DNA from: Maledivibacter sp.
GTDB taxonomy: Bacteria > Bacillota > Clostridia > Peptostreptococcales > Caminicellaceae
Assembly (NCBI GenBank): GCA_025210375.1
Contig: JAOASB010000013.1
Coordinates: forward strand, 62,001-126,000
Length of the DNA stretch: 64,000 nucleotides
Direction: 5' to 3'
Shown here: piece after piece, positions 10,701 through 44,249 of the stretch
Numbering within the stretch: the stretch's first letter is position 1
Layout of the letters: each line of letters opens with the position of its first letter
Translations under genes and position numbers: made by a program
The notes under the pieces: generated by a model
The model's input: only the letters and a program-made list of their open reading frames with translations
Database searches by the model: none
Told to the model about the DNA's origin: nothing

Positions 10701-11768
10701 ATCATTAAATTTTAGTTTATCGAAAATATACTCGTTCCATAAAAATTCTTGTCTAAAATACGAAAGATTACTTGAATCTGATCTTGATGAAATTACTAAC
10801 CCCTTCACATCATTTCGCTTTGATAATTGCTTAATTGAATGGAGTATCTTACTAGCATCATAATATGGTACTTCGTCTAAACCATCAAATAGGTAAAAAT
10901 ATTTATTTCTTTCATTTCTATAGGATAAATCATAATCAGTCAATCTTTCTCTAATCAGATTTTCAATATTACCATTTATACACTCTCTTAACCTTATAAA
11001 TACTGGAATGCATACACATTCATCCTTCTTAGGCTTCTCAAAATAGAATGCATTAAATTTATCTGAAAAATCTTTGTAAAGTTTCTTCATTGCAACAGAT
11101 TTTCCAGTTCCCGCTGCACCTAATATTACTGCAAATTTATCTTTCGTCAAATTTGATATTAAGTCTTCTACAGTCCTTCCATTTGTAAAACTTAAATTTA
11201 GAAATTCATCTGATTGTAAAAAGGTATTATCTTCAATTGAAATAGCATCTCTTATAAATTCCCATTCTCTTGAATCGGAAAAATACATTTTATATAGATC
11301 TAGATTACTAGATTCTTTAACCATGTCTAGTATATTATCAGCTTGTAACCACTTGATCTCTATGTTATTTTTTTTAGCAATACGTGCTATATCTATTCTT
11401 GGCGTATCAGATCCCGAAAGTATCTCCTCATCAGTACAGACATGGCTTAATTCGGCATTTGTGTAAATATAAATAACATCTAATTTTCCTTTAAAATACT
11501 TCACTGCTTTTTTTAGTGACTTTCTAACCTGACGATATTTCGTGTCATTACTTTCACTTATAAAGAATTTGCACTGTGCTCCATACCATTTCTTTTCATC
11601 TTTATCCTCGACAGGTTGAAATTCTAATCCCGCCTCATTTATATTATAACTGTATTCATATGCTGTCTTTTTTCTATCTCGAAGAAAGAGAACTCTACAC
11701 ATGTCTTCAAAAGCTTTGGTTCTATCTTTATTTTTCCTATTAAAATCATACCAATCAGCTCTTACCAA
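7707..11768 (-). CDS. NACHT-type STAND NTPase with N-terminal PD-(D/E)XK-like nuclease, probable anti-phage protein
   Basis: 1353 residues. The first 150 look like an Mrr/restriction-type nuclease: E21 in FEDM, E49 in AGLEF, and Q65-x-K67 in GAQCKFF. A NACHT-type NTPase follows, with Walker A GAAGTGKS at 217-224 and Walker B FDGLDE at 294-299. The remaining ~900 residues are helical, repeat-like sequence without a known motif, presumably the sensor. Nuclease-NTPase-repeat architecture is that of Avs and bNACHT anti-phage proteins, which degrade DNA after sensing phage proteins. The likely start is TTG at 11768, 10 nt after AAAGGAG; a TATAAT box lies at 11826-11831. It appears to stand alone as cargo beside the oriT candidate. 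The exact Avs or bNACHT class is not determinable here. Confidence 0.85.
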   Translation of the reverse strand: MVRADWYDFNRKNKDRTKAFEDMCRVLFLRDRKKTAYEYSYNINEAGLEFQPVEDKDEKKWYGAQCKFFISESNDTKYRQVRKSLKKAVKYFKGKLDVIYIYTNAELSHVCTDEEILSGSDTPRIDIARIAKKNNIEIKWLQADNILDMVKESSNLDLYKMYFSDSREWEFIRDAISIEDNTFLQSDEFLNLSFTNGRTVEDLISNLTKDKFAVILGAAGTGKSVAMKKLYKDFSDKFNAFYFEKPKKDECVCIPVFIRLRECINGNIENLIRERLTDYDLSYRNERNKYFYLFDGLDEVPYYDASKILHSIKQLSKRNDVKGLVISSRSDSSNLSYFRQEFLWNEYIFDKLKFNDIEKYFDSKNNDIKKKKLKNLENGKLISEIDDIFSANILWENIEDVDFTTSKIEIIELAIFYWIRTYSKLRELSLLQPKQEKICEICQEISFQMQKKLSYSISLDKAQEIIKQNFGVKSPSDINTIIEALTDLFFEASYYEGTKTNMSFRHKRFQEFFLYQKIEKEYYDRPEILRELKLFSNRDFMINIFLRTSLKRSELNRNTYKCLSLRLLEGYLGSYYISKEYRDDLIGRNKSYMYVEPHYSYSNTFLYLLSTYKEQELEFLLSNDNLNIGDAITEENFPDFAEVYHRTNGVDISPFVKQKFSIETVKVNHENIGRLCYYLYNIKNEGMNDIYKKLLSESKLTDSNVKHMDYVANDNKLEHSFIRTSLEFELKYLSTLVENMDIYMLEVLSYNLVEHQYINILLQKTDEAIEFREKLIYRIEDKDEKYYTNTLAIYTLLSDEDKYQEKLKKAFNEANQRNYPSWSRHIELHILLAILQKDNCRYKLSEFELGVEITRIAYNNYHDTRKILDEWLEVIKPYNFIYNGWLRYYHSHMLGVFISKLNFDPLQVKKFLRELLNYESIIYIQTVLFTIYKSNKNLFEKVANKGLLDKILKDTLRDDIDEYNSQSESIFQLAVMYDSVDIDKKYELLIYGIDNSMVRPAYRAEQLVSRALPECLYLAHQSFWYDADIMEKKCHQLYNVLETINKTSDNAGSMEHLKWVIEKCNIESEFLQRYLYNVSAYSPYSDGEIFEYDMDCINIENIEEYYACRVNDAPYKSIQFWRDLVEIEYSLDSKLTKLYDTFSKMNYPSYFGNEFVQYCHFPTAVLYEKEETREAIVQYIINQGGTYGIYNMIRVFFIIGEMNEGIHYIEHLIKFSELLISNSNYVYEKEGNIIEAIRGEWNVDESQNEAISNLNPNIKISWNDYDEREAFQEDWATCHPDKSAYRYDYKLFVDGNIRRRFSLVWVDGFRAVLPIPKLGTNIVRREEYLMSKIFNRNIEELNSYMRRSNLIVQ

Positions 11769-23101: not shown

Positions 23102-24133
23102 TCATAGCTCCATTTCTTCACCATTTGTATTGGCTTCAACTACTTCTGCCACCTTCAATGATTCATAATACATAGCTAATGCCTTATCAATGATGCTTAT
23201 AACTTCTGATTCCTCTTGGTCAGGCTTAAAATGTTTGACAAACACCTTCCCCCAATACTTAGGTGGCTTAGGTTTCTCAGCCTTTTCTTTCTTTTCGCCT
23301 CTAATAATGGCACTAGCTGAATCAAAGGTCAGTGGTGCTTTCTTATCAGCTCCACGTAAGTCCCTTGCCCTTTTCATATCAATCTTGAAGTTTTCTTCTG
23401 TAACAATAGCATGGACAATATCGAGACTTTCTTCTCTTAAATAAGAGAGATCAACACCTGCTCTGATAGCAATTTTTCCTTCGTCTACTAATTCCTTAAA
23501 TTCTTCGGGGAGTTTAGATATACGAAGATAACGAGCTACAGAATTTTTTGAGAGATTATATTCTTTGCCTACTTGCCCCATACTTGTCTCGAACTTCTTC
23601 CCCACTGGGGAAGAAGTTGACTCATCAATATTGGGTGATTTAGATAACCTTTCAATTTCTTCTAGTAAATCTGTTCTAAATCCCTGCTTCTTCATAGCAT
23701 CATGCCTTACAGATACAACCGTTGCTCTCTCAGAATGAGGTAAATCGCCAAAAGAACGTTGCATCGTATTGGTCTCTGTTACAATCAATAAAGCTTCTTC
23801 TTCTGTTAATCCTTCCTTCACAACAGCAGGTATCTCTTTTAAGCCAAGTATCTTACACGCTTCTACTCTATTATGCCCACTTAGAATTTCAAACTTAAGT
23901 CGTTTTTTCCTTACAACAATCGGCACTATCACACCAAATTGCCTGATACTCTCAACCATTTCATTAAGCCGTTCCCCTTCATACAATTTGAAGGGGTGGT
24001 TCTTAAATGGCACTAACTGCTCTATCTTAATGATATCCTGATTAGGTGTTTCTTTATTTTCTACATCGGGATCATAATCTTCTCCGAATATCGCCATAAA
24101 TGGCTGAACCTTTTTTACTTCACCTTTACTCAA
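23102..24133 (-). CDS. parB: ParB/Spo0J-like partition protein
   Basis: 343 residues. A ParB N-terminal nuclease-like/CTP-binding domain (about 35-125) carries [16 protein letters not shown] and [18 protein letters not shown] helix-turn-helix follows (about 195-215, [17 protein letters not shown]), then a charged C-terminal region. ParB proteins bind centromere-like sites and work with ParA to stabilise replicons, here presumably the circular ICE. It overlaps the end of parA by 8 nt and lies just upstream of the giant gene. Confidence 0.9.
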
Positions 24134-24929
24134 ATGACATCACCTCTTTTTTCAGCAACTCTCTTGTGAATCTTTCGTAAGCAATTGCCGCTTTATTCGT
24201 AGGCATATAGTCAATGATACTCTTACTTCTTGCGTTGGCTTCACCAACCTTTACCGACTTAGGTATCTTGGTTCTAAATACCTTGATATGCTCTCCATAA
24301 GAAGCTTCAATCATTTCTAGCATTTCTTGTGCAAGATTGGTTCGTTCATCAAACATGGTCAGTAGAATACCCTCAAAATCAATCTTCTTATTGATACGTT
24401 TCTTGATTTTAAATATGGTTTTTAGAAGTAACTCAAGACCCTTAGCTGATAGATATTCAGGTGTGGCAGGAATCAATACGCTATCACTACTGGCTAGTAC
24501 ATTAAGTGTCATAAGTCCAAGAGAAGGCATGGCATCAAGTAGCACATAATCATAATCCTCTTTGATTTCATCAATAATGGCTTTAAGAATATACTCTCTA
24601 CTCATAGCTGACACCAACTTGATTTCAATATCCGATAGTAGGATACTGGCAGGTAGCACATCTACCCCTTCCCTATTAATAATGTACTCTTCCTTCTCAG
24701 GCAAATCCTCATCCATAATAATGCGTTCCATTAAATGATAAAGGGTCACATCCAACTTATCAGGACTTTCAATACCAAAACAATCTGTCAAATTCGCTTG
24801 GTTATCACAATCCACCACCAACACCTTGTAACCCATATATTTTAAAATCGTAGCTACGTTTCTACACGTTGTACTTTTTGCAGTGCCACCTTTTTGACTT
24901 GCTACAGCTATCACTTTACTCATCTTCAT
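24126..24929 (-). CDS. parA: ParA/Soj-like partition ATPase
   Basis: About 267 residues. The deviant Walker A KGGTAKST begins near residue 12, followed by VDCDNQANLTD and LLDAMPSLGLMTLNVL, all standard ParA motifs. The start is placed at the ATG at 24929 (or 24923, two codons later), just after GGGAGA. An upstream in-frame ATG at 24995 would lie inside a strong hairpin and is rejected. First gene of the leftward ICE operon. It drives partition of the element with ParB. Confidence 0.92.
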   Translation of the reverse strand: MKMSKVIAVASQKGGTAKSTTCRNVATILKYMGYKVLVVDCDNQANLTDCFGIESPDKLDVTLYHLMERIIMDEDLPEKEEYIINREGVDVLPASILLSDIEIKLVSAMSREYILKAIIDEIKEDYDYVLLDAMPSLGLMTLNVLASSDSVLIPATPEYLSAKGLELLLKTIFKIKKRINKKIDFEGILLTMFDERTNLAQEMLEMIEASYGEHIKVFRTKIPKSVKVGEANARSKSIIDYMPTNKAAIAYERFTRELLKKEVMSFE

Positions 24930-24965
24930 ATCTCCCTTCGATTTTGATATTTTTTCTGCAAAAAC

Positions 24966-25009
24966 AAAAGAGATAGGTATCTGATTATTAATCAAATCCT
25001 ATCTCTTTT
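24966..25009 (-). terminator. terminator-like hairpin in the parA leader
   Basis: A 12-bp perfect stem AAAAGAGATAGG/CCTATCTCTTTT, with a second inner repeat TGATTA-T-TAATCA, is followed on the minus strand by TTTTGTTTTTG. It lies between the upstream gene fragment and parA. It can end upstream transcription or attenuate transcription into the ParAB operon; the sequence does not say which. Confidence 0.7.
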
Positions 25010-25069: not shown

Positions 25070-25211
25070 TTAAGTGCGCACTGCAATGATAATTTCAAGT
25101 TCTCCAACGGGTATTTTATTCCTAAAATCACGTCCATCTTTAATAAACTTAAAATCACTCGTAGCCCTTGTAAATACAGCTATTTCGCTGATTCTTTCCT
25201 TTGTATGATGG
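25070..25211 (-). pseudogene. 3' fragment of a disrupted ICE gene
   Basis: An open stretch of about 47 codons ending in TAA at 25070-25072 encodes a protein-like C-terminus with the segments RISEIAVFTRATSDF and IPVGELEIIIAVRT. It has no start codon or ribosome site and is cut at 25211 by the TGTCAAG end-like sequence. This looks like the tail of a gene interrupted when the neighbouring cargo segment arrived. The 5' part was not found in the window. Confidence 0.5.
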
Positions 25212-25228
25212 TGTCAAGTTAGGACAAC
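25212..25228 (+). repeat. IS3-type terminal repeat remnant
   Basis: TGTCAAGTTAGGACAAC resembles the left end of the IS element at 31654 (TGTCAAGAAAAAGGACAAG) in the same orientation. It marks the point where the upstream gene fragment stops. It could be all that remains of a second IS copy on the far side of the defence gene. Confidence 0.5.
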
Positions 25229-25266: not shown

Positions 25267-28200
25267 CTAAATCTTAATTTCTATCTCTTTAAGTACCTTC
25301 TGCAATTTATTATCAAGTATGATAATCCTACGTCTTTCTGCTTCTTCAGCTTTGTCATCATATTTGTCATAGGCATCTGAATATCTTATATTCATTTGTG
25401 CAATTACTACAGTATTAGGCTTTGATTTTAAGTAAGAAAGAAATTCCCCTTCTTTAATAAATAACATATTACCCTTTGAAATTAAATTATACATTCTATC
25501 ATCATTGGAGTATGACCAATACTGAGTTTTTATTGGATAACTATTATTTTTTGTAATACAATAATCCGCAGGTGATGTGCCATCAATTTTTAAAAAATGC
25601 TCAATATCTTTACTTGGTTTTAGAAGGCTATAATTCATTTCATTTGTATACGGATCAAAGGTTTCAAAGCTACTATCCTTTCCATAATACTCACCTGTTA
25701 CATCCTCAATAAATCTATCATCACATCTATGATCCTCATCACTTATAAAACTCCATTCAATCCAATAGTTTAACATTCGGACTTGTTCAAGAAGCTTATT
25801 TAAAAACTTCTTATCCATTATTCCAATAGACATACTATAGGCTTTTCGGCTCTTTTTATATTCTATAGAGCTATTATTATAAAGAATAAAATATTTCTGC
25901 TTTTCATGTACATGCCAAAAAGATTTATGAAATATACCATCATCAATTACATACTTCGCATCTTGAACATACCTCTTCATATCTAAGAATATTTCTTTTT
26001 TTGGAGGCAATGATTTAAGGTCGGAAACCCAGCTTCCTTGTATATTTGTTAACCAACTTTGTATCCACCCTTCAAATGTATAAATTGGGTTTTCGTCATT
26101 TGAAATAGACTGGGTTTTCCTATATTCATCAGCTATATAATACATTGCATTGTATTGTACATATTTTGATAAATCTTCTACAGATGTACCTAATCCATAT
26201 GAATTCTTACTATATTCGCTGGTTTTATATTGTTCATTCCATTGAGCTACTGTATCATTTGTAATCCCCCATGAAGAAATTATTTTATCACAATCTTCCA
26301 TAACTTTTCCTTCTGATTTTTGGAATATTTGTCCCAAATAATAATATACTTTAGGTACTATATCCAAGGTATCGAAATGAAATTCTACACTTTTCTTTTC
26401 TTTATTATATAGCTTTCTTGGTTGATATTTTACAATTTTTTTACTAACCACATCACATGATATTTCAACTTTTTTTGAGGGTCTAATGATCATTATAATC
26501 TCTTTAGCTAATTGTCTCTGTAAGATATTAATAGTTTTATTCGTTAATGCTATATGCTCTAAAACAGGTAGATATTTTATTACTATTAAAACATCTTCTT
26601 CAACTATTTTTCTTAAGGCAACTAGTAAATAAATAATTGCACTATCTTTATAATAAACATATTGTTTGTCCTTATATAACTCTGGTATATTATCATCAAA
26701 AATTAATTCTATAATCTTATCTATTATTTGTCCTTCTTTTAGCTTGTACAAGCTATAGATTGCATGCATAGCATACCAGCGCTTCTCTTTTTCTACATGG
26801 CCTAACATCTTAATTAAATAAATTGCTAAGCTTTCTTCTATTGAAAATATGTTTCTTTTACTTGCCTTATAAACTTCATCGCCAGAAGCAGGATGTACAT
26901 TTGTGATTTCTTCCGCACAACACCACTCTAATAATTGGCTACAATTTTCACAATCATCTATTGAAGATAAGCTTTCAATATATGAAAAGATTCTCCATGG
27001 CTCATAACATAAATAGGAAGAAGCATTCTTAACCATTTTTGACAAAATAGTATCATTATCAATCAAGAACATTCTAGATATATGATGTAAGTTCTTTTCT
27101 TTAAAAGACTCGGTCTTCTGGCTATATAGCTCTAAAATCTCATCTAGTTTTCTCTTATCTTCACGCCAATCCATTATCCTCGGATTATATTCCCCCCACT
27201 CATTTAAGTAATCTATAAGAATCTCAAAGCACTCATCATTTTCCCAGCAAGATGTTGTAGTATACATAATATCAAGTAATAATTCTATAACGCTTAGTTG
27301 ATTTTCATAGGCTGTATTCTCAAATACGAACTCTACTAATTTTCCACGGTCTTTATAATACATAGAATCCATTGTAGAGATTAATGATTTTTTATTTTGC
27401 TTAATTGTATTCTTATCTACATTATCCCAGCATAGTTTCTCGTTTACATATGATTCTAATTCTGTATTTCTAAATTTTTTTTCAATAAAACAATATTCAT
27501 CATTTAACTTTTTTATACAGTCAATCGAATCGTCATACTTATCCTTACTCCATTCGTAAATTTTTTCTATGATATGTCCATTTTCAAAACCACCAGACAA
27601 CTTTTCAATATCATATGATATAACTTGGATAATTCTTTCAGTTTTTTTTATACTCTCTCCTCTGAGTCTTGCTAGAATAATATTTACAATATTGTTATAT
27701 GATTCTCCATACTTAATATCTATGTTTGATAGTGCTGTTGCTGTTTCTACTGAAATTTTATGGTCTTGCAATAATTGTTCGATAATGTAGGGTATTGAAA
27801 TTTCAAAACCTAGTGCTACATAATCATCATCTCTATCTTCTAGTCTACATGCAGCAGCAATTGCAGATGATGGGTGTACTTTTGTTAATAGTTTATAAAT
27901 ATTTGATTTAGGAAGATGTTTGTTATCGTCTAATCTTTTATAACTGTCTTCTATAATTCGCACAAAATTATAAACAAGTTCAGATGATTTATTATCTGCT
28001 CTATAGTTTTCAGACAACTGCTTGAATAAGTCTATTCTTCTATATGCCTCTTCATCAACGCCAGTTGTAGCATTAATTGCCTTAAGAAAATAATCATATG
28101 CTAGTCTTCTATCAATTAATATTGCTTTATTTGAGCAATCCAAATAAAACTTCTTCAAATCATATGCTGATTGGGGATACTTATTCATTTTTGCATCAAG

Positions 28201-31200
28201 TTCTTTTAGATACCACGCTGCTAAATCTATATATTTTTTATCTTTTATAATATCACCAATAATCTTAAAGTGAAAATTATTATCAAGGTATCTATTATCT
28301 TGAAAGACCTTACAAAATTTTTTCAAGGTATTTTTATCTCGACTAAGCAACATGCAGAATATATTTCTTGTTATAATTCTATAATAATCATAAGAATTAT
28401 GATCGTTGTAAAATTGATAGCTTCCCCTTTCACAATTAGACCATTCTTTATTAAAATCATCCATATTTAGTCTTGGTGTATTATTACTATCTATCATCTT
28501 TAATCTAATAAAAAATGAATTAATTATAAAATCCAGAATTTTTTTTAGTTCATTCCGTCTTTCTCTTATCTCACTTTCAGTGTATCTTTCATACCTTTGA
28601 GAATCCGGTGACCAAAAATCATCAAAGCAATATTCTTCACCTTTTAAGTATTTCTTGAGAGCATAAAATCTAAATGCATACTCCTTAGGCAATTCTCCAT
28701 TCATTTCATAAAATGATATATATGAATAATCTATTGCTACTTCAGTGTTATCAGCTATATTCGTTGCTTCTTTAATTCTTCTTCTCTTCAATAACATTTC
28801 CATTAGATTAATTCTATACTTTAGCCCTGTAACATTTATTTGTTTTTCTTTTTCTATATGTTTAATGAGCCTTTCACCAATTGTCCAAAACTCATCTTTT
28901 ATAGAATAATTTAATTCTACGAAGGCAACAGCACATGCTGCAAACATATCTATATCATCGGAGTAACCAATTATTAACTCTGCTTTCTCTATGAATCCAT
29001 GTAATAATAAACTATAGGTGACATCGTAATATCCCTGTGAGGGATATGGACTCCATCTATGTAACCACTTTACAGCATCTTTAGCACCATATCTCATCGC
29101 TATATATATAGCCAATCTAGATATATCTATTTTTTCAACTCTATGATTTAAATTTCTATCAGTATCTTTCTCTTCTTTATACTGGTTTATTTTTATTAGA
29201 GAAGACTTAAAAAATTGATCTGCTAGTTTATAGTCTTCAAGTAGTGAATTTGTATATGTTTGTAACGTTAGTTCACTCAAAGAATGAAATTCTGATTTGA
29301 CTAGGATATACCGGTCAATGGTACTTTCAAATCCTAACTTCTTTGCCAACCCCATATTTTCTAATATAATTTCTTTTACTCCAGCATCAGTAGCTTTACA
29401 CTTTGTCTGTATGTATAATAATTTGTATGCATCTAACCTATACTTTTCATTACAGATTTCATCTATTGAAAAAGCACTTTTTATCCTTTTAGATATAATT
29501 TCATTTTTTTCATCTTCAATTAACGGAATACTAATGTTTTTAGTTGTATAAATAGAACTTAAAATCTCATCTAGTTTTTTTGCTTTTTCCAAAAATATAT
29601 GTAAATATTTTATAGAATAATAATCATCAAGACGTCTATTGTATAGGGTTTCTGCAATCTTCATAATTGCTGACTCGCTACTTTTAGCAGTAGTTCTTAA
29701 ATACTCCTCAAAGTCTTCATCTCTAAAAGTTATGATACCATTGCCAAAGTAAACACCTATTAAATATTCTGAGCAGGCACTCGCTAGTTTTTCAGTATTA
29801 TAATCAGTTGAACTTGTAATAATATCAACAGGAATTGGTCTGGGTAATTCGACTAATGCTCTACATAGTTCTTCGAAAGATATCATTTCTGAAGATATTC
29901 TACTATCTACTTTCCTTATTGCATCTTCAAATATTCCTTTTAAGTTCTTTCCATTTGGATTGAGATATTCTAAAGCTTCCCCAATATTATGAGATATCTT
30001 AGAAAAAACATAATACTGAACTCTTGGATTGCCATTAGTAAGTTGTCTTATCTCTTCACTTTGAATATCTGATACATTTTTATAAAACATATCTATATAA
30101 TTACGTTGCTCCTTTTTACTAAATCCTTTCAACTCAATCTGAACCGTTCCATAGGGCAATTCAAATTTATTTAATCGCTCTGTTCTTGATGTGACTAGAA
30201 TAGCAACGTTTTCTGGTAATGTAATTTTCATGAGTTTATCTGCAAAACACCTATCCCCCAGCACTTCTGATGCTGAATAACTATTGTCCACTGCATCCAA
30301 TATAACTAAAATAACCGCATTCTGATTTATTTTCTTTACATAATCAGATGCTTGGTAAAGTCTGGTTGATAAGCTTTTCAGATATTCACTTTCCTCCAAA
30401 TTTGTTCTAACTAGAAAAGGTGTATAGCATTTCAGTGCTAATTCATTACTCAATTGTATAATTGCATTTTTATATGTATGCAATGGTGTTGATGGATCTA
30501 AATATGAGCCACCACCAAAACAATCATACAATAATACTTCGGAACCACTCGGTAGACTATTCTCTAAATCAGATATTACACTTGTTTTTCCTATTCCACC
30601 AGTTGCATGTAAACAAATATGTTGCATTCTATTAATAACTATCTCCTTAACAATATCAGCACTCACATCTCGTTTAACATATTGTTGTGGTTTTATTATT
30701 TGTGAACTTGCTGGAAACAAACTATCAGGTATTGTATTAAAGAAACTTGCCACGATATTTTTATCAATTGGTTCCGCCTCATTTTCTTCAGGTGACATTT
30801 GCTTTCTTATAAACTGAATCAATTTATCATAATTTGCTTTCAAATCTAATATACCCAATTTGGCTAAAGAAGTGATTACCTCTGATTCCTGTATATCCCT
30901 TATTCCTGTACCACATTCACTGAAATCAATACTTTTTATAAACCCTATAAATTCAGCACTGCTTAATTTCGTGTTTTCATAAAACAATTTTAGATGCTGG
31001 TGATCTTTTTGGGGAATTAGTCTCTTTAACTCAATATACTTTGTACAGTTACTTTCTTCTATTGTTTCATGGTATTTATTTAATTGATTTTTAAATTTTT
31101 CATCTATTTCCCTATTAGTTACTAGTTTTAATTGCAATTTCTCTATATCTTTGGGGTATTTTTTTAAAAAGCCTTTATAGGTTTGAGCTAATCGTTGAAT

Positions 31201-31533
31201 TATTGAGTTGTCTTTTTTACTATTAGTAGTTGCTGATAGAGAAGAAAATGTCCAAGGCAAATCTCCATGACGAGTACTATATTTTAACTGCGAAAATATT
31301 ACTTTTGTAGCATCTTTATACTTTCGACCTCCAAAATACTCCGCTACATCTATTGATAGTAATGCATTTCCATCATCTTCAAATACTATACTATCTTCAA
31401 TATTTGGTCCCTCAACACATAATGCCTCAAAATCTGTATGAGGTTCTAATAGTTTTAATGCTTTCTTCGCAGACCAAATAAAATGAAAATCGTCTCCTGC
31501 ATTTGACTCTCTTGCCCCTGTCATTTCCTTCAT
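25267..31533 (-). CDS. giant Avs-like STAND NTPase with N-terminal Cap4-type (DUF4297) nuclease domain
   Basis: 2088 residues. The N-terminus (GDDFHFIWSAKKALKLL, then SIDVAEYFGG and Q82-x-K84 in FSQLKYS) matches the DUF4297/Cap4-type dsDNA nuclease. A STAND NTPase follows with Walker A TGGIGKTS at 311-318 and Walker B-like ILDAVDNS at 411-418. About 1500 residues of helical, TPR-like sequence complete it. This size and order are those of Avs anti-phage proteins, which recognise conserved phage proteins, assemble and cleave DNA. The ATG at 31533 follows GAGGTGG. No partner gene is visible; the gene is bracketed by an IS end remnant and a nearly complete IS3-family element. Which phage protein it senses cannot be predicted here. 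Confidence 0.87.
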   Translation of the reverse strand: MKEMTGARESNAGDDFHFIWSAKKALKLLEPHTDFEALCVEGPNIEDSIVFEDDGNALLSIDVAEYFGGRKYKDATKVIFSQLKYSTRHGDLPWTFSSLSATTNSKKDNSIIQRLAQTYKGFLKKYPKDIEKLQLKLVTNREIDEKFKNQLNKYHETIEESNCTKYIELKRLIPQKDHQHLKLFYENTKLSSAEFIGFIKSIDFSECGTGIRDIQESEVITSLAKLGILDLKANYDKLIQFIRKQMSPEENEAEPIDKNIVASFFNTIPDSLFPASSQIIKPQQYVKRDVSADIVKEIVINRMQHICLHATGGIGKTSVISDLENSLPSGSEVLLYDCFGGGSYLDPSTPLHTYKNAIIQLSNELALKCYTPFLVRTNLEESEYLKSLSTRLYQASDYVKKINQNAVILVILDAVDNSYSASEVLGDRCFADKLMKITLPENVAILVTSRTERLNKFELPYGTVQIELKGFSKKEQRNYIDMFYKNVSDIQSEEIRQLTNGNPRVQYYVFSKISHNIGEALEYLNPNGKNLKGIFEDAIRKVDSRISSEMISFEELCRALVELPRPIPVDIITSSTDYNTEKLASACSEYLIGVYFGNGIITFRDEDFEEYLRTTAKSSESAIMKIAETLYNRRLDDYYSIKYLHIFLEKAKKLDEILSSIYTTKNISIPLIEDEKNEIISKRIKSAFSIDEICNEKYRLDAYKLLYIQTKCKATDAGVKEIILENMGLAKKLGFESTIDRYILVKSEFHSLSELTLQTYTNSLLEDYKLADQFFKSSLIKINQYKEEKDTDRNLNHRVEKIDISRLAIYIAMRYGAKDAVKWLHRWSPYPSQGYYDVTYSLLLHGFIEKAELIIGYSDDIDMFAACAVAFVELNYSIKDEFWTIGERLIKHIEKEKQINVTGLKYRINLMEMLLKRRRIKEATNIADNTEVAIDYSYISFYEMNGELPKEYAFRFYALKKYLKGEEYCFDDFWSPDSQRYERYTESEIRERRNELKKILDFIINSFFIRLKMIDSNNTPRLNMDDFNKEWSNCERGSYQFYNDHNSYDYYRIITRNIFCMLLSRDKNTLKKFCKVFQDNRYLDNNFHFKIIGDIIKDKKYIDLAAWYLKELDAKMNKYPQSAYDLKKFYLDCSNKAILIDRRLAYDYFLKAINATTGVDEEAYRRIDLFKQLSENYRADNKSSELVYNFVRIIEDSYKRLDDNKHLPKSNIYKLLTKVHPSSAIAAACRLEDRDDDYVALGFEISIPYIIEQLLQDHKISVETATALSNIDIKYGESYNNIVNIILARLRGESIKKTERIIQVISYDIEKLSGGFENGHIIEKIYEWSKDKYDDSIDCIKKLNDEYCFIEKKFRNTELESYVNEKLCWDNVDKNTIKQNKKSLISTMDSMYYKDRGKLVEFVFENTAYENQLSVIELLLDIMYTTTSCWENDECFEILIDYLNEWGEYNPRIMDWREDKRKLDEILELYSQKTESFKEKNLHHISRMFLIDNDTILSKMVKNASSYLCYEPWRIFSYIESLSSIDDCENCSQLLEWCCAEEITNVHPASGDEVYKASKRNIFSIEESLAIYLIKMLGHVEKEKRWYAMHAIYSLYKLKEGQIIDKIIELIFDDNIPELYKDKQYVYYKDSAIIYLLVALRKIVEEDVLIVIKYLPVLEHIALTNKTINILQRQLAKEIIMIIRPSKKVEISCDVVSKKIVKYQPRKLYNKEKKSVEFHFDTLDIVPKVYYYLGQIFQKSEGKVMEDCDKIISSWGITNDTVAQWNEQYKTSEYSKNSYGLGTSVEDLSKYVQYNAMYYIADEYRKTQSISNDENPIYTFEGWIQSWLTNIQGSWVSDLKSLPPKKEIFLDMKRYVQDAKYVIDDGIFHKSFWHVHEKQKYFILYNNSSIEYKKSRKAYSMSIGIMDKKFLNKLLEQVRMLNYWIEWSFISDEDHRCDDRFIEDVTGEYYGKDSSFETFDPYTNEMNYSLLKPSKDIEHFLKIDGTSPADYCITKNNSYPIKTQYWSYSNDDRMYNLISKGNMLFIKEGEFLSYLKSKPNTVVIAQMNIRYSDAYDKYDDKAEEAERRRIIILDNKLQKVLKEIEIKI

Positions 31534-31701: not shown

Positions 31702-32511
31702 TTAACCTGCAAAGCTAGCTTCAAAATCATGAGGTGATTGCATGTTACAACAACTATGAATTCTTGTTGTATTATAAAACGTTTCGATATATTCGAAAAC
31801 TAGCTCGTGGGCATGCTTAAGATGCTTAATCACAAAGCGATTAAGCCATTCTCGTTTTATAAGTGCATGAAATGATTCAATACACGCATTGTCCCAAGGT
31901 GTACCTTTGGCTGAATAACTTCGAATGAAGTCTTTGGCTGGCATTTCAGCGATATACGCTTTTGAAACATATTGGCAGCCGCGATCACTGTGTATAATAA
32001 TCGGATGGTTTGTCTGTCGATTTTTCTTGGCCTTTTGAATAGCTTTAATGACACCTTGTGTTGATAAACTATCTGATAAGTGCCACCCTATAATTTTCCG
32101 TGAAAATAAGTCCATTACAGAAGTTAAATACATAAAACCAGAAAGTGTATGGATATATGTTATATCAGTAACCCATACTGCATTTGGTTTATCAGGCGTA
32201 AAATGCCTTGCTAAAACATTCTTTAGCTTTATATCGAAGTCTGGATCGATTGTAGTCTTTACATAAGGACGAACCCATATGGCTCTGATTCCTAGTTCTT
32301 TCATGTAAGTACTTACAGTTCTTTCTGCAATTACATGGCCTCTAGAACAAAGAATTGAAGCGATTTTTGGTGCTCCATATATTTGTTTAGATTCATTATA
32401 TATTTCGGTTATTTCATCAGAAACTTCTTGTTTACGTATTTCTTGATTAGATGGTGTTCTTTTAAGCCAACTGTAGTATCCGGATGTTGAAACGCCTACA
32501 AGTGTAAGCAC
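31702..32511 (-). CDS. IS3-family transposase OrfB (DDE integrase)
   Basis: 269 residues from a GTG at 32511. It has the HTH_21-like segment VSDEITEIYNESKQIYGAPKI and the rve integrase core with DDE residues in WVTDITYIH, IIHSDRGCQY and DNACIESFHALIKRE. In IS3 elements OrfB is made as an OrfAB fusion by -1 frameshifting. The slippery A6G run is present at the end of orfA, but the extended orfB frame meets a TAG at 32554-32556. Either translation starts at the GTG or the element is defective. Confidence 0.87.
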   Translation of the reverse strand: MLTLVGVSTSGYYSWLKRTPSNQEIRKQEVSDEITEIYNESKQIYGAPKIASILCSRGHVIAERTVSTYMKELGIRAIWVRPYVKTTIDPDFDIKLKNVLARHFTPDKPNAVWVTDITYIHTLSGFMYLTSVMDLFSRKIIGWHLSDSLSTQGVIKAIQKAKKNRQTNHPIIIHSDRGCQYVSKAYIAEMPAKDFIRSYSAKGTPWDNACIESFHALIKREWLNRFVIKHLKHAHELVFEYIETFYNTTRIHSCCNMQSPHDFEASFAG

Positions 32512-32573: not shown

Positions 32574-32867
32574 TTAATCGTTCAGTATGCTTATGGCCTT
32601 TTTTAAGATTTCTAATGCGTCTTGTGAATCACGTAGTTCTTTTTTTAATTTAGCAATTTCTTTTTCGGCATCAGAACTGTAATTCCCTGATCCACGATGT
32701 TCTACCTGACCATCATTGTGCTTAGCACTTGTAATCCACTTACTTAGTGTTGATTGGCCTATTTTCAGGTCGGTTGCTACAACTTTTACTGATTTTCCTG
32801 ATGAATAATAATAATTTACTGCATCTTGCTTAAATTCTGCTGAATATGACTTTTGTTTTCTTCCCAT
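32574..32867 (-). CDS. IS3-family transposase OrfA (helix-turn-helix)
   Basis: 97 residues with an N-terminal HTH (KSYSAEFKQDAVNYYY, then VATDLKIGQSTLSKWI) and a C-terminal leucine-zipper-like helix (AEKEIAKLKKELRDSQDALEIL), the standard OrfA layout for binding IS ends and dimerising. An A6G slippery run close to its stop codon is the usual -1 frameshift site. It directly precedes orfB on the same strand. Confidence 0.87.
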   Translation of the reverse strand: MGRKQKSYSAEFKQDAVNYYYSSGKSVKVVATDLKIGQSTLSKWITSAKHNDGQVEHRGSGNYSSDAEKEIAKLKKELRDSQDALEILKKAISILND

Positions 32868-33415: not shown

Positions 33416-35005
33416 TTAATTGACGCAAAAAAACTCATTTCCAAACCTAAACCTAACCTCAATCCTATCCACCGAATACACCATTACCCCTTCAACGAAG
33501 GTATCATATAACTCCTTAGTCAACGTATTTGCTCCATAAAATACTTTAGCTGTCTTCGCTTCTTCTGATTCCCCATAAACCAGCTCCTTTTCTATAATCT
33601 CCCTTAGCTCAACTGTCTTCTTTTCGATTTCAGCTATTCTAGTATTAATCTCATCCGACCTATCTATAAACTCCACCTTTGAAATCTGATGCATTTTATA
33701 ATCTTCGTACATAGCCATCTTATCACTTTTTAGCTTCACTATCTTTTCCTTATGCTTTTTAATTGAACCTTCTAGTTTCGCCTTCTCATCTTCCTTGGCT
33801 TGTACACTACTTTTCTTAAGTTCATCATACGAGATTAACACCTCCATATGCTTCTTAATAAGTTCAAAGACTATCCCCTGTAACTCATCAATAAATATCC
33901 TCTCATGAAAGCAGTTATTCTCACCCGAATACCAGTTATTGATACAAAAGAATTTAGGTCTTTTCTTGGCTGTACGGTGTAATTTTGAGTTGCATCCACC
34001 ACATCTTACATTGGATAAAACGTGCTGTTTTCTAATATTTGATTGTTTTGATTTGACTAAATACCTGTCTTTTCGTAGCTCCATAACCTTATCAAAATCA
34101 ACTTGAGAGATTATAGGCTTATGTGTATCTTCAATGATGATCCAGTCTTCTTTCTTTTTATATTCACATTTTGCAGAACCAACCTTTGTGACACCTCTTC
34201 TGTTACTGATTAACTTACCTGTATACCTTTCTTCTTTTAGAATTCTATCGATGTAGTCTCTTTTCCAAAACATCTTTTCAACAGAATCACTGTTAATGGT
34301 ACATGAACCATAACTACTACCCATGCTCTTTTTATATTGTAATGGGGTTAGTACATTCTCATCATTTAGAATTCTCGCTATATCTGTCATACCAGTACCT
34401 TCAAGATATAGTTTATATATTCGTTTTACAACCTTTGATGCTACTGGATCAATGATTAGCTTATGTTTGTCCTTCTTATCCTTAAAGTAGCCGTAAAAGG
34501 CATAAGCACTAATGAACTTGCCTTGTCTTTTTAGAGCTTGATGAGCTGATTTTACTTTCTTTGATATATCTTTTGCATATAGATCATTAATTAGGTTCTT
34601 AAAAGGGATTTCGATTCCTGTCGTTGTGCCTACATTTTTATCACTGTCATAATCATCGTTGATGGCTATAACACGAACGCCAAGGAAGGGAAATATCTGT
34701 TCAAGATAATTCCCCATCTCAAGGTAGTTCCTCCCAAGTCTTGATAAGTCTTTTACAATGATGCAGTTGATATATCCTTTTTTTGTTTGCTCTAATAGTT
34801 TAATCATACTGGGTCTGTTGAAGGTTGTACCTGAGTAACCATCATCAACATATTCAATGACTTTTGCTGAGGATAATTCAGGACTCTTATTGATATATGT
34901 ACTGAGCAAATCCCTTTGATGTTTTACGCTATTACTTTCACCAATGTTTTGGTCATCTGCTGATAGACGTATGTAGGTTGCTATGGTATACATTTTTTTA
35001 TTCAT
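33416..35005 (-). CDS. large serine recombinase, third of three
   Basis: About 529 residues from an ATG at 35005 that overlaps the stop of the upstream gene in ATGAATAA, so it is translationally coupled. Resolvase domain with likely nucleophile S15 (YIRLSADD) and VKDLSRLGRNY, a recombinase domain, a zinc ribbon (RCGGCNSKLH, then two more Cys about 20 residues on) and a C-terminal coiled coil (about 385-440). Enzymes of this family integrate and excise elements by serine-mediated strand exchange. Full length for the family. Last gene of the three-recombinase operon, followed by a terminator. Confidence 0.92.
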   Translation of the reverse strand: MNKKMYTIATYIRLSADDQNIGESNSVKHQRDLLSTYINKSPELSSAKVIEYVDDGYSGTTFNRPSMIKLLEQTKKGYINCIIVKDLSRLGRNYLEMGNYLEQIFPFLGVRVIAINDDYDSDKNVGTTTGIEIPFKNLINDLYAKDISKKVKSAHQALKRQGKFISAYAFYGYFKDKKDKHKLIIDPVASKVVKRIYKLYLEGTGMTDIARILNDENVLTPLQYKKSMGSSYGSCTINSDSVEKMFWKRDYIDRILKEERYTGKLISNRRGVTKVGSAKCEYKKKEDWIIIEDTHKPIISQVDFDKVMELRKDRYLVKSKQSNIRKQHVLSNVRCGGCNSKLHRTAKKRPKFFCINNWYSGENNCFHERIFIDELQGIVFELIKKHMEVLISYDELKKSSVQAKEDEKAKLEGSIKKHKEKIVKLKSDKMAMYEDYKMHQISKVEFIDRSDEINTRIAEIEKKTVELREIIEKELVYGESEEAKTAKVFYGANTLTKELYDTFVEGVMVYSVDRIEVRFRFGNEFFCVN

Positions 35006-36008
35006 GAATACCACCACCCATCTTATCATTTACATGATTCTTATAACGCTCATTAGCCATCTGAGCTTTATTAAATAAATCTTCTGTTATAATAGGCTCG
35101 TGCATATTCTTGACAATAGTCCAGTCTTCCCTTGGTATATTTTTTATCTTGTTGCTACCACATGAAATAACCCTCGCAACACCCTGTACAACATGACCAA
35201 GATAAACTTGTTTGGTCAGCATAGCGTATATGGCAGATTTTAGCCATAATACGTCCTTATATCTTCTGCTCTTGGTTTCTCCTTTTAGATATCTATGTCT
35301 CATGGGAGATGGTATATTCTCATCATTAAGTTTTCTCGTAATTTCTTTTACTGATTGTCCATCAGCTCTCCAAGTAAAAATATTTTTTATGATGGGAGCT
35401 GTTTCTTCATCTATGACAAGTTGATAGCTGTTATTAGGGTCTTTTCTGTAACCGTAAGGTGCATAAGTGCCTATGAAATTTCCCTTTTGTTGTTGAAGCT
35501 TCTTTTGTGAGCATACTTTCTTGGATAAATCTTTTGAATAGGCTGCATTGACTAAGTTTTTAAGAGCTATCATGAGTCCCGCATTTGTATCTGTATCTGC
35601 ACTATCATAGCTATCATTAATGGATATGAAGCGTACACCCATAAAGGGAAATATCTGCTCAATATAATGACCTGTTTCTACAAAGTTCCGTCCTAAGCGT
35701 GATAGGTCTTTGACAATGATACAATTGACTTTTCCCTTTTTAACTGCATTTATCATAGTTTTAAAGGCAGGTCTTTCAAAGTTAGTCCCTGTCATGCCAT
35801 TGTCACTGTAAATTTTATAGAGCTGTAGATCAGTGTGCTGAGCTAGGTAATTCATTAATAAGTTCTTTTGAACTTCTATGCTATCACTGCCGATATTTCC
35901 GTTATCTTCATGGGATAATCTTACGTAAAGTGCTGTGTTATAGGTTTTAGTCTTCTGCTTCTTTACAGGCTTTTGTTGATTTATTGCCTTTCTGCTTACT
36001 CTTGCCAT
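34998..36008 (-). CDS. serine recombinase lacking the zinc-ribbon/coiled-coil end, second of three
   Basis: 336 residues. The catalytic domain is intact, with S32 in YVRLSHED and VKDLSRLGRNFVETG, and the recombinase domain runs to about 330. The protein ends before the zinc ribbon and coiled coil that both neighbours have. Its ATG follows the TAA of the upstream gene directly, with GGAGGTGG as ribosome site, and its end overlaps the next start by 8 nt. This is not an obvious frameshift remnant because the tail leads smoothly into coupled translation. It may work as a heteromeric partner of the two full-length enzymes. Confidence 0.88.
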   Translation of the reverse strand: MARVSRKAINQQKPVKKQKTKTYNTALYVRLSHEDNGNIGSDSIEVQKNLLMNYLAQHTDLQLYKIYSDNGMTGTNFERPAFKTMINAVKKGKVNCIIVKDLSRLGRNFVETGHYIEQIFPFMGVRFISINDSYDSADTDTNAGLMIALKNLVNAAYSKDLSKKVCSQKKLQQQKGNFIGTYAPYGYRKDPNNSYQLVIDEETAPIIKNIFTWRADGQSVKEITRKLNDENIPSPMRHRYLKGETKSRRYKDVLWLKSAIYAMLTKQVYLGHVVQGVARVISCGSNKIKNIPREDWTIVKNMHEPIITEDLFNKAQMANERYKNHVNDKMGGGIHE

Positions 36009-37667
36009 TTAAACCACCTCCGATAAAGATGTAGTTTCCAGTTCTTTATTGGATATGGATTTTATATAGCTTAGAGTTTTTTCAAAAGCACTTTGGTACT
36101 TAAAATGAATCTCTATTCTGTTTTCTTCATAAATTTGTATTTGGTCGATGAGCGTAATCATCAAATCTCTTGATAAAATATCTGCCGAATGATATTGTTT
36201 GAATCTACTAATCCACTCACTTTCAGGTGAAATGGTGTTTTTAAAATATTCTAGCTCATGATGAAGATTATCTAAGATAGCCTTTGTTTCGCCACTTCGT
36301 TCTTCATAAATATGTTTCATATCTGCATAGTCTTCTTTTTTTATTAGACCTTCTGTATAGTCTTCGTAAATGCTCACTTTAAAGCGATTTATTTTATCCC
36401 ATTCCGCTTCATTTTTTACTATTAATTCCTGTATTTTGTTAATTTCACGGTTCTGAACGGAACTACCATCAATAGTTGATAAGATATTTTTCATTGATAA
36501 GATAATGTCTATATGCTTACGAATAACATGTAGTATGGTTTCTTTTAATGCTTCTTCTTTAATGGAATGATTGCTACACTTCTTTTGATTTTTATAGGTA
36601 TTGCAAACATAATAGACATATTTTTTCTCACCGGATACTGCTGATTTCCTGACCATTGAATTACCACAGTCACCACAAATAAGCATACCTGAAAACAGAT
36701 ATACTTTCTTCTTATTAGGTGCTATACGTGTATCTTTTAGAAGTACCTCTTGTACTGTTTGGAATAGTTCCTTAGAGATAATAGGCTCGTGTACGTCCTC
36801 TACACGTATCCATTCTTCTTTTGGTTTCTCTATACGTTGTTTGATTTTATAATTGACCGTAACTCTTTTCCCTTGGGATATGACACCGATATAAACTTCG
36901 TCTTTTAATATTCTTAAAACGGACACGTGAGTCCACTTAGCTTTATCATTGACTTTGAAGGTGGTTTTGAAATTGCTTCCCTTTGATTTTTTATATTCCA
37001 TAGGTGATAATACACCTAAGCTATTTAATTTATCAGCTATACCTTGATGGCTCATGCCTTCTTTTTTCCATTTGAATATAGTTCTTACGGTGTCTGCCGC
37101 TTCTTCATCAATAACCAGTTTATTATGATGCTCAGTAGATTTCTTATAACCATAGGGACTAAAAGAACCGATAAACTCACCTTTTTTTCTCTTTACATCA
37201 AACTGACTCCTGATCTTAATAGAAATATCTCTAAGATAGGCATCATTAATAAGGTTCTTAAAAGGTATTAACATGTTATCCATTGTTGATTCATTAAAAC
37301 TGTCAATGCCATCATTTATGGCTATAAATCTTACGCTGAAAAAGGGAAATATTTGCTCAAGATAGCGTCCTGTATCAATGTAGTTTCTACCCATTCTTGA
37401 TAGGTCTTTTACAATGACGCAATTAATACGACCAGATTTTATATCATCCATCATGGCTTGGAAGGCTGGACGCTCAAAATTGACACCTGAATAACCATCA
37501 TCAATCCTTATGGACTTGAGATGCATATTTGGCTTGTTGGAAAGATAGGATTGTATCAATTCTCGTTGGTTAGCGATACTATCGCTTTCTGCTTTGTCAC
37601 CATCTTCTTTGGATAAACGTAAATACATGGCAACATGATAGGTTTTTTCTTCAATATTCTTGTTCAT
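36009..37667 (-). CDS. large serine recombinase, first of three
   Basis: About 552 residues from the ATG at 37667, 8 nt after AGGAGG; an in-frame start at 37715 has no ribosome site. Likely nucleophile S19 (YLRLSKED), VKDLSRMGRNY, recombinase domain, zinc ribbon (LICGDCGNSMVRK with a later C-x5-C pair) and a long C-terminal coiled coil. TnpX-type architecture. It opens the recombinase operon, downstream of a relaxase and a DUF6870 gene, and probably catalyses integration/excision of the element next to rlmD. Confidence 0.92.
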   Translation of the reverse strand: MNKNIEEKTYHVAMYLRLSKEDGDKAESDSIANQRELIQSYLSNKPNMHLKSIRIDDGYSGVNFERPAFQAMMDDIKSGRINCVIVKDLSRMGRNYIDTGRYLEQIFPFFSVRFIAINDGIDSFNESTMDNMLIPFKNLINDAYLRDISIKIRSQFDVKRKKGEFIGSFSPYGYKKSTEHHNKLVIDEEAADTVRTIFKWKKEGMSHQGIADKLNSLGVLSPMEYKKSKGSNFKTTFKVNDKAKWTHVSVLRILKDEVYIGVISQGKRVTVNYKIKQRIEKPKEEWIRVEDVHEPIISKELFQTVQEVLLKDTRIAPNKKKVYLFSGMLICGDCGNSMVRKSAVSGEKKYVYYVCNTYKNQKKCSNHSIKEEALKETILHVIRKHIDIILSMKNILSTIDGSSVQNREINKIQELIVKNEAEWDKINRFKVSIYEDYTEGLIKKEDYADMKHIYEERSGETKAILDNLHHELEYFKNTISPESEWISRFKQYHSADILSRDLMITLIDQIQIYEENRIEIHFKYQSAFEKTLSYIKSISNKELETTSLSEVV

Positions 37668-37731
37668 AATGCGCCCTCCTAAATGTATAAGAATTAACTT
37701 AGAAACACATAACATTTAGGGGTAGCGTACT

Positions 37732-38121: not shown

Positions 38122-39078
38122 CTACATTTCTAGTTCATTCTCATAGCTCTGCTGGTTATCCCAATCCAATCCCGAATTTTGCTTCATATTGGCTATCATA
38201 TCTTTGTATTCAATGCTTGATAGTGGGTAATACTTTTTATCATTTGCATGATTATTATTTGATAAAAGATTTGATATAGCTGTTAACCACCCATCTACAG
38301 TATTCTTCATATTTTGGTGATTTCCTAAACTGTGGTTGAATCCTAATCTTCTTTCAATAGCGTCTTTTGAATAATCTTCTGATAGCTTATTGTCTCTACA
38401 CCTTTTACCACTAGGGGTTGTGAAGGTGATGTATTTTCTTGTGTCTGTCCACTTCACTTTGTAGCCAAAGGTTTCCATGTTGGTGATGAAGTCTTGCCTG
38501 TTGATGGAATTGTACTTGCATATATCAATGGTTTTCTCCAGTTCATGTTTCCAACTCTTCACCTTGACTAAGCTCCTGTACTCGCCTGATTTCATGTGAT
38601 TATTATTTTTACCATGTGTGACGGTTAATCCATAGTCTCGTATAATCGTGTCGGAATAGTTTTTTAGTTCTTGGAGCTGTTTTGGATTCTGTTGCCATTT
38701 ATAGCCCGTTTCATAGTTAACTGTGTTGATGATGAAGTGGTTATGCAAATGATTCCTGTCAGTATGAGTAGCCATGACTACTTGAAAACCATTGAATACA
38801 GGATTTTCAAGTAGTTTCTGACCTACTTCGTACACTGTGTCAGCTGATACATTTTCCCATGTTGCAAAAGATTGTATGAAATGTATAAACTGCCTTCCAG
38901 TCATCTTGTTGTAGCTATGCTTTATGGCTTTCATCTCCATATAAGCGTTATCACTGTTGCAGTCTTTTCCATAGATTAGATGAGACTCTGTTTTTGATGG
39001 TTGAGTGATATAGTTGATGGACTTTTTGAGTCCTGTTAGCGTTTTATTCCCTCGGTTAACAAATTCAAGCACTGCCAT
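38122..39078 (-). CDS. mobA: second MOBP-type relaxase
   Basis: 318 residues, clearly paralogous to the relaxase at 5855-6811 and of the same length: candidate catalytic Y23 in SINYI, HFIQSF, and the histidine cluster H105, H110, H112, H114 in THTDRNHLHNHFIIN. It overlaps the 3' end of its own mobC by 43 nt. With the recombinases downstream and no coupling or channel genes nearby it looks like the relaxase of a mobilizable element that would depend on another element's type IV secretion system. Confidence 0.91.
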   Translation of the reverse strand: MAVLEFVNRGNKTLTGLKKSINYITQPSKTESHLIYGKDCNSDNAYMEMKAIKHSYNKMTGRQFIHFIQSFATWENVSADTVYEVGQKLLENPVFNGFQVVMATHTDRNHLHNHFIINTVNYETGYKWQQNPKQLQELKNYSDTIIRDYGLTVTHGKNNNHMKSGEYRSLVKVKSWKHELEKTIDICKYNSINRQDFITNMETFGYKVKWTDTRKYITFTTPSGKRCRDNKLSEDYSKDAIERRLGFNHSLGNHQNMKNTVDGWLTAISNLLSNNNHANDKKYYPLSSIEYKDMIANMKQNSGLDWDNQQSYENELEM

Positions 39079-39347
39079 ATATTCTTTAGTTCCTCCCTTG
39101 TGGATTCAAGACCTAGCGTGGTTATTCTGCCTTGATGACAAAGCATCACCGCTTGGTTTAGGTTTGTACCTATTTTAATGAGTTGCTTTTCTACATCGGG
39201 TAAACCCTCTATAGATGTTATGGTATTACCTAGTGCTGATAGAGCAATATATCGACTGATCGTCATACCTGATTGTTTAGCTTTTTTGGAAATTTTATTG
39301 TATTCTTCCTCTGATACTCGAAAGGTTATATGTTTATTTTTTTTCAA
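39036..39347 (-). CDS. mobC: second MobC relaxosome protein
   Basis: 103 residues. Ribbon-helix-helix-like N-terminus (ITFRVSEEEYNKISKKAKQ) and MobC signature LIKIGTNLNQAVMLCHQG. Overlaps the relaxase start by 43 nt, as the first mobC does with its own relaxase. A strong AAGGAGG site precedes the ATG. It lies next to the repeat-rich gap at 39348-39680, the probable oriT of this module. Confidence 0.9.
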   Translation of the reverse strand: MKKNKHITFRVSEEEYNKISKKAKQSGMTISRYIALSALGNTITSIEGLPDVEKQLIKIGTNLNQAVMLCHQGRITTLGLESTREELKNIWQCLNLLTEGIKR

Positions 39348-42835: not shown

Positions 42836-42889
42836 ATAGGACAGCAGTTCGCAACCCTTCATATTACAGGTTTCTAACTGTTGTCCTAT
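42836..42889 (-). terminator. intrinsic terminator of rlmD at the element junction
   Basis: ATAGGACAACAGTT pairs with AACTGCTGTCCTAT (13 of 14 bases) across a 26-nt loop with an inner AACC/GGTT, and a run of seven T follows on the minus strand. It begins 4 nt after the rlmD stop. The junction between mobile element and chromosome should lie in or next to this structure. Confidence 0.7.
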
Positions 42890-42893
42890 TATA

Positions 42894-44249
42894 TCACCTA
42901 CTTATTCGTACAATAGTCTCCACATGCGGCGTATGGGGAAACATATCTACACACTTAACTTTTTCAACGATATAATCACTTTCCTCATTTATTTGTTTTA
43001 AATTCTCCGCTAGGGTTTTAGGATTACATGAAATATATATAATCTCTTTTGCTTTAAATTCTAAGATTTTGCTTAACGCTTTGGGATTAACCCCTACTCT
43101 AGGTGGATCTAGTATGATTATATCGGGCTTTTCATTTAATTCATCAATCTTTTTCAGTACATCTCCAGCAATAAAATGACAATTATTTAATCCATTGTTT
43201 GAGGCATTATGATTTGCAGCATCTACTGCTTCTTCAACTATTTCTATCCCTATTACCTTCTTAGCCTTTTGTGCAACTATCTGACCAATGGTACCTGTCC
43301 CGCAGTAGAGATCAAAAACTGTTTTATTATCTTTATCTTCAATAAAATCCAAAGCAGTTTTATATAAAACCTCTGCCCCTAATGTATTTGTTTGGAAAAA
43401 TGAAAATGGAGATATCTTAAACCTTAATCCGAGAAGTTCATCATAAAAATAATCCTGTCCGTATAAGATTTCCATTTTATCACATTTAACTGCATCGGCC
43501 AAATTATCGTTAAGTATATGGATGACTCCCTTTATTTCTCCCTGAAGCTCAACCTCAAGAAGGTTATTAACATAGTCAGTCAAATCAATATCTAACTGTG
43601 TGGATGTAACTAAAACCACCAACATTTCACCTGTGTTTAAACCCTTCCTTACAATAAGATGTCTTAAATATCCTTTATGAGTCTTATTAACATAGTGTGG
43701 AATTTCTCTTTCATTAAAGTATTGTAGGTTTAATTTCAGTATGTCGTTGAAATCTTCATCAACCAATTTACATTGATTCACTGTTACAACAGAGTTAAAC
43801 TGTCCTCTTTTATGCATTCCTAGGGTCATTTCTCCACCCTTTATTTCATCACCAAAGGAATATTCCATTTTATTTCTATATCCATATACCTCTGGACTTT
43901 TTTCAATACCAAGGAATTCATAATCATGGATTCCCGCATCATCAATTAGTTTTTTTACTAAATCGGCTTTTATTTGAAGTTGTATATCATAGTCAACAGT
44001 TTGCCTGGCACATCCTCCACAAAGTCCAAAATGTGAACAGAATGATTCTGATTCAAAGGGGGACTGCTTAATAACTTCGATTAATTTGCCTTCGCAGTAC
44101 TCCCTACGATTCTTCTTTATTCTAGCCCTTACCGTCTGTCCCTTCAAGGCATTTTTTATGAAAACTTTTTTTCCTTCAAGTTCTCCTATACCCTTTGCGG
44201 GAAACTCCATATCCATTATTTCAACTTCTACTATTTGTCCTTTTTTCAA
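42894..44249 (-). CDS. rlmD: 23S rRNA (uracil-5-)-methyltransferase, RlmD/RumA type
   Basis: 451 residues. N-terminal TRAM domain (about 1-58), cysteines C71, C77 and C80 for a 4Fe-4S cluster, then the SAM-dependent methylase with LYCGTGTIGQ, DPPRVGV and the catalytic-cysteine segment YISCNPKTL. The reaction is methylation of uridine C5 in 23S rRNA; RlmCD-type double specificity is possible in Firmicutes. The gene is intact to its stop. The mobile region starts just beyond its 3' end, and rum-type genes are known integration sites of some streptococcal ICEs, so this is the likely target. Confidence 0.92.
   Translation of the reverse strand: MKKGQIVEVEIMDMEFPAKGIGELEGKKVFIKNALKGQTVRARIKKNRREYCEGKLIEVIKQSPFESESFCSHFGLCGGCARQTVDYDIQLQIKADLVKKLIDDAGIHDYEFLGIEKSPEVYGYRNKMEYSFGDEIKGGEMTLGMHKRGQFNSVVTVNQCKLVDEDFNDILKLNLQYFNEREIPHYVNKTHKGYLRHLIVRKGLNTGEMLVVLVTSTQLDIDLTDYVNNLLEVELQGEIKGVIHILNDNLADAVKCDKMEILYGQDYFYDELLGLRFKISPFSFFQTNTLGAEVLYKTALDFIEDKDNKTVFDLYCGTGTIGQIVAQKAKKVIGIEIVEEAVDAANHNASNNGLNNCHFIAGDVLKKIDELNEKPDIIILDPPRVGVNPKALSKILEFKAKEIIYISCNPKTLAENLKQINEESDYIVEKVKCVDMFPHTPHVETIVRISR

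Follow-up and report, generated by a model that had tools for sequence, protein, structure and literature searches.

A divergent Avs3a homologue without avs3b beside an ICE end in Maledivibacter sp.

Identification of the gene

The window analysed here, a 64,000-nucleotide stretch of a Maledivibacter sp. contig, carries on its minus strand an intact avs3a-like gene (25267..31533) encoding a protein of 2088 amino acids. Its ATG-initiated frame of 2088 codons has no internal stops in the ORF listing and occupies exactly the interval given by the first-pass annotation, a reading of this DNA made from the sequence alone. The gene stretch is low in GC (28–32%), and the gene is present in a single copy within the 4.56-Mb assembly.

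The PADLOC Avs3a profile, a model of 2090 positions, matches residues 6–2065 of the product (452 bits, E 7.5e-136), and the NCBIfam Avs3a model NF041816 also gives a match (520.6 bits, E 8.6e-156). The latter score lies below the NF041816 equivalog cut-off of 2800 bits, which gives a narrow definition of Avs3a; L034, an Avs3a accompanied by avs3b, likewise falls below it (1011 bits). The Avs1, Avs2, Avs4, and Avs5 profiles of PADLOC and NCBIfam have no matches to the protein at E <= 1, and phmmer against the PDB sequences returned SeAvs3 of 8DGC as the sole match (E 6.2e-87, residues 7–1266 and 1562–1847). Pfam yields a weak NACHT signal alone, and the protein therefore looks unclassified to a reader of the sequence. 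A search of phage records gave no match to it.

Domain architecture and predicted structure

Three domains follow one another along the minus strand: a Cap4-type PD-(D/E)xK nuclease (30733..31533, residues 1–267), a STAND/NACHT NTPase (29674..30705, residues 277–620) with the P-loop G313-x-G315-K316 and the Walker B region D413-A-x-D416-N417, and a predicted sensor region (25270..28581, residues 985–2088) consisting of helical repeats and a beta-rich end, with the fold of SeAvs3 residues 974–2082. In the 41-sequence alignment of relatives, nuclease residues E41, D62, Q82, and K84 (the latter two forming Q82-x-K84) are invariant, as are G313, G315, K316, D413, and D416 of the NTPase.

AlphaFold2 models were built from 41-row alignments of the window protein and proteins of related loci (pLDDT 86.9 and pTM 0.82 for residues 1–760; pLDDT 82 and pTM 0.83 for residues 985–2088). 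For the nuclease-NTPase model, 8DGC ranks first in both structure searches (Z 26.9 over 498 residues), followed, in the middle part, by STAND/NLR NTPases and, at residues 1–267, by the HerA-DUF (9C1M, Z 16.2), Cap4 (7YIA, Z 15.4), and LmuA nucleases; Avs4 and Avs5 structures are weak matches to this model. For the sensor model, the two 8DGC chains are the sole Foldseek matches in the PDB below 1e-3 (1e-25 to 1e-26, best 4.4e-26), and VIA-align superposes it on 8DGC over 999 residues (Z 29.4, rmsd 6.3), the next row having Z 10.4; we judge the rows other than 8DGC to be generic helical repeats.

SeAvs3 of Salmonella enterica, solved with the PhiV-1 terminase (8DGC), thus has the same order of Cap4-type nuclease, STAND NTPase, and helical sensor, a length that differs by four residues (2092 vs. 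2088), and a full-length match in both sequence and fold, at an identity in the structural alignment of about 28% in the nuclease-NTPase part and 16% in the sensor. The SeAvs3 nuclease resembles those of Cap4 and DUF4297-HerA (PMC11291478), and the folds of these CBASS and HerA-associated nucleases are also like that of window-protein residues 1–267; their sensors are different (a SAVED domain and HerA, respectively).

Given the conserved nuclease residues and P-loop and the Avs3a match, the earlier reading of the gene as an Avs-type nuclease-STAND-sensor protein on a mobile element was right, and the structure model shows a nuclease fold at residues 1–267. The C-terminal region, described there as helical over about 1500 residues, is indeed present at about 1470 residues, but its last ~215 (from about residue 1870) are beta-rich in the structure model. 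The first-pass annotation could not match the sensor to a described Avs class; PADLOC, NCBIfam, and Foldseek all give Avs3, and the structure and PADLOC checks confidently assign the protein to this characterised class, an outcome that the annotation itself had said would end the novelty at class level. With a full-length Avs3a profile match, a Cap4-type nuclease, a STAND NTPase, and a sensor of SeAvs3 fold, the protein belongs to the broad Avs3 family, as a divergent full-length Avs3a homologue rather than an unclassified Avs.

Conservation was also scored by region, taking as conserved each position kept in 85% or more of the other rows. Of these, the window protein retains 21/23 in residues 1–240, 37/44 in 241–560, 13/15 in 561–1000, 4/6 in 1001–1560, and 15/29 in 1561–2088. 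Judged from this pattern, the effector and the switch are constrained and the far end of the sensor is less so.

Genomic context

The ICE ends just 3' of the gene, with ParA (24126..24995, minus strand) as its terminal backbone gene and, beyond it, an ICE-terminal segment of 44–47 codons (25070..25211, minus strand) that adjoins an attachment-site-like half, ATACAAAGG. On the other side of avs3 lie an IS3-family insertion that occurs once in the genome (31664..32937; ORFs 31702–32511 and 32574–32867) and has inverted ends AGGACAAsTTAAATA, three tandem large serine recombinases (33416..37715), a MobA-type relaxase with a small accessory ORF belonging to a second (mobilizable) element (38122..39347), and an intact rumA/rlmD-type 23S rRNA methyltransferase gene (42894..44249), the attachment gene of this ICE family; all are on the minus strand.

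Homologues of the ICE were retrieved by a close ParA (the two best at 70–73% identity); the parA DNA, used as a query against plasmids, gave no matches. Homologues of the 25070–25211 segment directly follow or overlap the rumA 3' end in three of these and related loci (9230–9480 in L031, 8940–9050 in L133, 11000–11140 in L136), and adjoin rumA-like sequence in L112, L114, L115, and L032. The segment is coding-like and contains the motif DFRNK; in a frame different from that of rumA, it starts at the 3' end of this gene or overlaps it. Since its homologues abut rumA in sister ICEs, it is the end of the ICE beside the attachment site, and not, as had been proposed, what remains of an ICE gene that the cargo had interrupted. 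Two other candidate identities were rejected: the segment has no Avs3b match that would mark an avs3b remnant, and no Rfam match that would mark an RNA element.

The terminal segment has avs3 on its ICE side in L031 and L032, whereas in the window the gene is on the opposite side and hence within the 17-kb stretch from the ICE end (~25.2 kb) to rumA (42.9 kb), together with the IS3 element, the three serine recombinases, and the relaxase. Rather likely, the 25.2–42.9 kb stretch is a second element stacked at rumA, and avs3 is probably carried by this neighbouring recombinase-bearing element rather than by the ICE backbone; of the suggestion that the gene is carried by the ICE, the mobile-element setting stands, and the gene itself is just outside the ICE end. 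An imperfect dyad, TAGGACAGCAGTT...AACTGTTGTCCTA, is situated at 42837–42888, just past rumA, together with a dyad-like half-site at 37732, ahead of the first serine recombinase, and, at 25220, a shorter half-site; all are possible recombinase sites. The 9-mer TAGGACAAC, which 25220 shares with the end of the IS3 element and with the dyad by rumA, was considered as an attachment core for the recombinases; a 14-mer search for such a core with 3 mismatches gave matches at chance level.

The slot between rumA and parA varies among sister ICEs. It holds a small HTH gene in L133; this gene adjoins parA in four ICE loci (L133–L136), and the window lacks it. The L031 slot contains a DUF1413-like ORF and avs3, with parA beginning about 90 bp 3' of avs3a, and that of L136 (2604–10593) contains Gabija (gajA, gajB) and two Lamassu-like genes matching LmuA. 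The L136 slot suggests that defence cargo recurs at this end of the ICEs, beside parA.

Within the ICE, at 7707–11768 of the window (minus strand), another large protein of STAND type (1353 aa) is encoded in a low-GC stretch between relaxase and Toprim genes. It has a P-loop, GAAGTGKS, a long C-terminal region and, by eye, a possible N-terminal restriction-type nuclease (GAQCKFF); its profile matches are limited to weak nSTAND3, mad8, and EruA P-loop hits, it has no PDB match, and a relative is found in a 1358-aa frame of genome G231 (L142). Its class is less readily assigned than that of the Avs3 protein.

An Avs3 lineage without avs3b

A related-locus search with the single window sequence gave no relatives; an alignment-based scan of 84,980 genomes found 285, of which the best 80 were kept. 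Every ORF of every kept locus was searched with an avs3b query derived from annotated avs3a–avs3b pairs. Where found, avs3b sits 3' of avs3a, its open frame almost always overlapping the avs3a end, by 25–334 nt. In the resulting tree of 79 proteins, drawn from the best 80 of the 285 relatives, avs3b was scored as present in 62 rows and as missing from 17, several of the latter being uninformative because of contig ends or frameshifts.

Ten of the rows without avs3b form a clade with 100% support: the window protein, L030 of Tissierella simiarum, L031, L032, L033, L035, L036, L037, L039, and L047. Outside it, avs3b is present in 62/69 of the Avs3a in the tree. The clade has long branches, is mostly clostridial, and nests in a larger set of 17 rows (starred in the tree), the 7 others of which have avs3b. 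With 9/10 members it is recovered from the sensor columns alone (100%) and from the nuclease-NTPase columns alone (99%). Whole-genome profile searches with an E threshold of 0.1 revealed no avs3b in the genomes of the ten clade members, nor in that of a broken relative (G374), whereas the same partner was detected in sister genomes G731/G823 (2e-81) and G824 (2e-60), which hold L034 and L038. Besides the clade, avs3b also went undetected in an alphaproteobacterial group (L081 and L107, together with L100, cut by a contig end).

The two-gene AVAST type 3 system, exemplified by the Klebsiella variicola plasmid NZ_CP089387, thus has its Avs3a component in common with the window; its downstream avs3b was found neither beside the window gene nor elsewhere in the genome, and the window protein stands at 520 bits against the 2800-bit cut-off. 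In this tree, which was midpoint-rooted without an outgroup, loss of avs3b in the clade is the simpler reading, which we favour, with ancestral absence as the possible alternative. Lacking the partner gene, the lineage appears to be a one-gene system.

The closest relative among the best 80 of the 285 is L030 (42–43% identity over the full length), also without avs3b and in a different neighbourhood, with a Mokosh-like gene upstream. Other clade members have Gabija genes as neighbours (gajA and gajB in L033, gajB in L039). A DUF1413-type ORF lies immediately upstream of avs3 in L031, L036, and L039; L032 and L036 share two downstream genes, the second of which, with a weak HEPN match, is also found 3' of avs3 in L039. 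Neither type of companion is beside the window gene or L030. Among the matches listed, there is one viral contig, L110, encoding an Avs3 with avs3b. Two of the clade relatives are broken genes: L036 is frameshifted, and L053/L023 of Acetivibrio alkalicellulosi is split by transposase genes, with part of the NTPase region duplicated. Separately, L020 (Shewanella baltica plasmid pSBAL17502, 5113–11415) is an Avs3a relative with avs3b whose N-terminus cannot be aligned to the Cap4-type nuclease, possibly an effector swap on an Avs3 sensor.

Proposed function and alternative explanations

When the sensor of SeAvs3 engages a viral protein, the protein reportedly tetramerises and its paired nuclease domains become active (PMC11291478), and the nucleases of Avs1–4 are reported to cleave phage and host genomes once terminase, portal, or some other phage protein has been recognised (PMC12931631). 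The window protein keeps the parts needed for a mechanism of the SeAvs3 type. By analogy, a conserved late phage protein would dock onto its C-terminal superhelix, the most likely candidate being the large subunit of the terminase, as in SeAvs3. With ATP bound, the STAND domain would next bring about tetramerisation, and the tetramer would pair the N-terminal Cap4-type nucleases, which would cut phage and host dsDNA and so abort the infection, presumably with no need for Avs3b. Very probably, the product is a divergent Avs3 that works as a phage sensor of the NLR-like kind and belongs to a mostly clostridial lineage without avs3b. The Gabija and Mokosh-like neighbours of its relatives speak for this reading; the missing partner Avs3b and the score well under the NCBIfam cut-off weigh against it, although L034 falls short of that cut-off too.

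Since the sensor end is less constrained, we infer terminase recognition from the fold and the class; the 16% identity in the sensor and the retention of about half of the conserved positions at its end, against nearly all in the nuclease, mean that the ligand may differ from that of SeAvs3. The Terminase_6N profile, representing the one terminase family searched, has no match in the source genome. A protein of the same architecture and effector mechanism that senses a different phage ligand, its sensor drift being linked to the missing Avs3b, would agree with this contrast, with the long branches of the clade, and with the different proteins sensed by other Avs classes (PMC12931631). Yet the SeAvs3 fold is retained across the aligned sensor with no domain missing, so that we hold a changed ligand to be rather unlikely. 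Immune sensors usually show faster divergence even when the ligand is unchanged, which also weighs against it. To treat the protein as founding an Avs class of its own, its sensor being of a kind not yet described, would accord with the low sensor identity and the score under the NCBIfam cut-off; the full-length Avs3a profile match, the SeAvs3 fold as the only significant structural match of the sensor, and the position inside Avs3 diversity in the midpoint-rooted tree make this extremely improbable.

The absence of avs3b could be apparent, the partner having diverged past detection or being supplied in trans. Avs3b is indeed divergent (29–38% identity to the first sequence of the reference set), but the searches of ten whole genomes, set against the strong signals in the sister genomes, and the lack of a consistent ORF 3' of avs3a in the clade (in L031 that place is taken by parA) render such a hidden partner very unlikely. 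The gene might, finally, be a decaying or silent cargo, with an open frame and neither expression nor activity in the source genome. The upstream IS3 element stops about 130 bp short of the avs3 start codon, and a promoter scan listed no minus-strand site in the interval between them, which leaves expression uncertain; the broken relatives point the same way. Against this, the frame is intact and all catalytic and P-loop residues are kept, and the ends of IS elements can provide promoters; we regard a silent gene as unlikely, and a functional Avs3 as the preferred reading.

Implications

The assignment itself is to a known kind of system, and the modest new point is a well-supported branch of Avs3 without Avs3b. 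The literature searched yielded no description of the role of Avs3b. As most of the sampled Avs3a genes carry an overlapping avs3b, a natural branch without it offers a direct test of Avs3b as an activator, a restraint, or an accessory. Through this lineage, NLR-like terminase sensing can also be put to the test in clostridia, and the rumA–parA slot of these ICEs emerges as a site of defence genes. Tentatively, and with doubt prevailing, we suggest that this one-gene, mostly clostridial lineage has given up Avs3b and reshaped the end of its sensor, and recognises a ligand or a terminase surface unlike that of SeAvs3; if so, its comparison with two-gene Avs3 systems would reveal how Avs3b acts.
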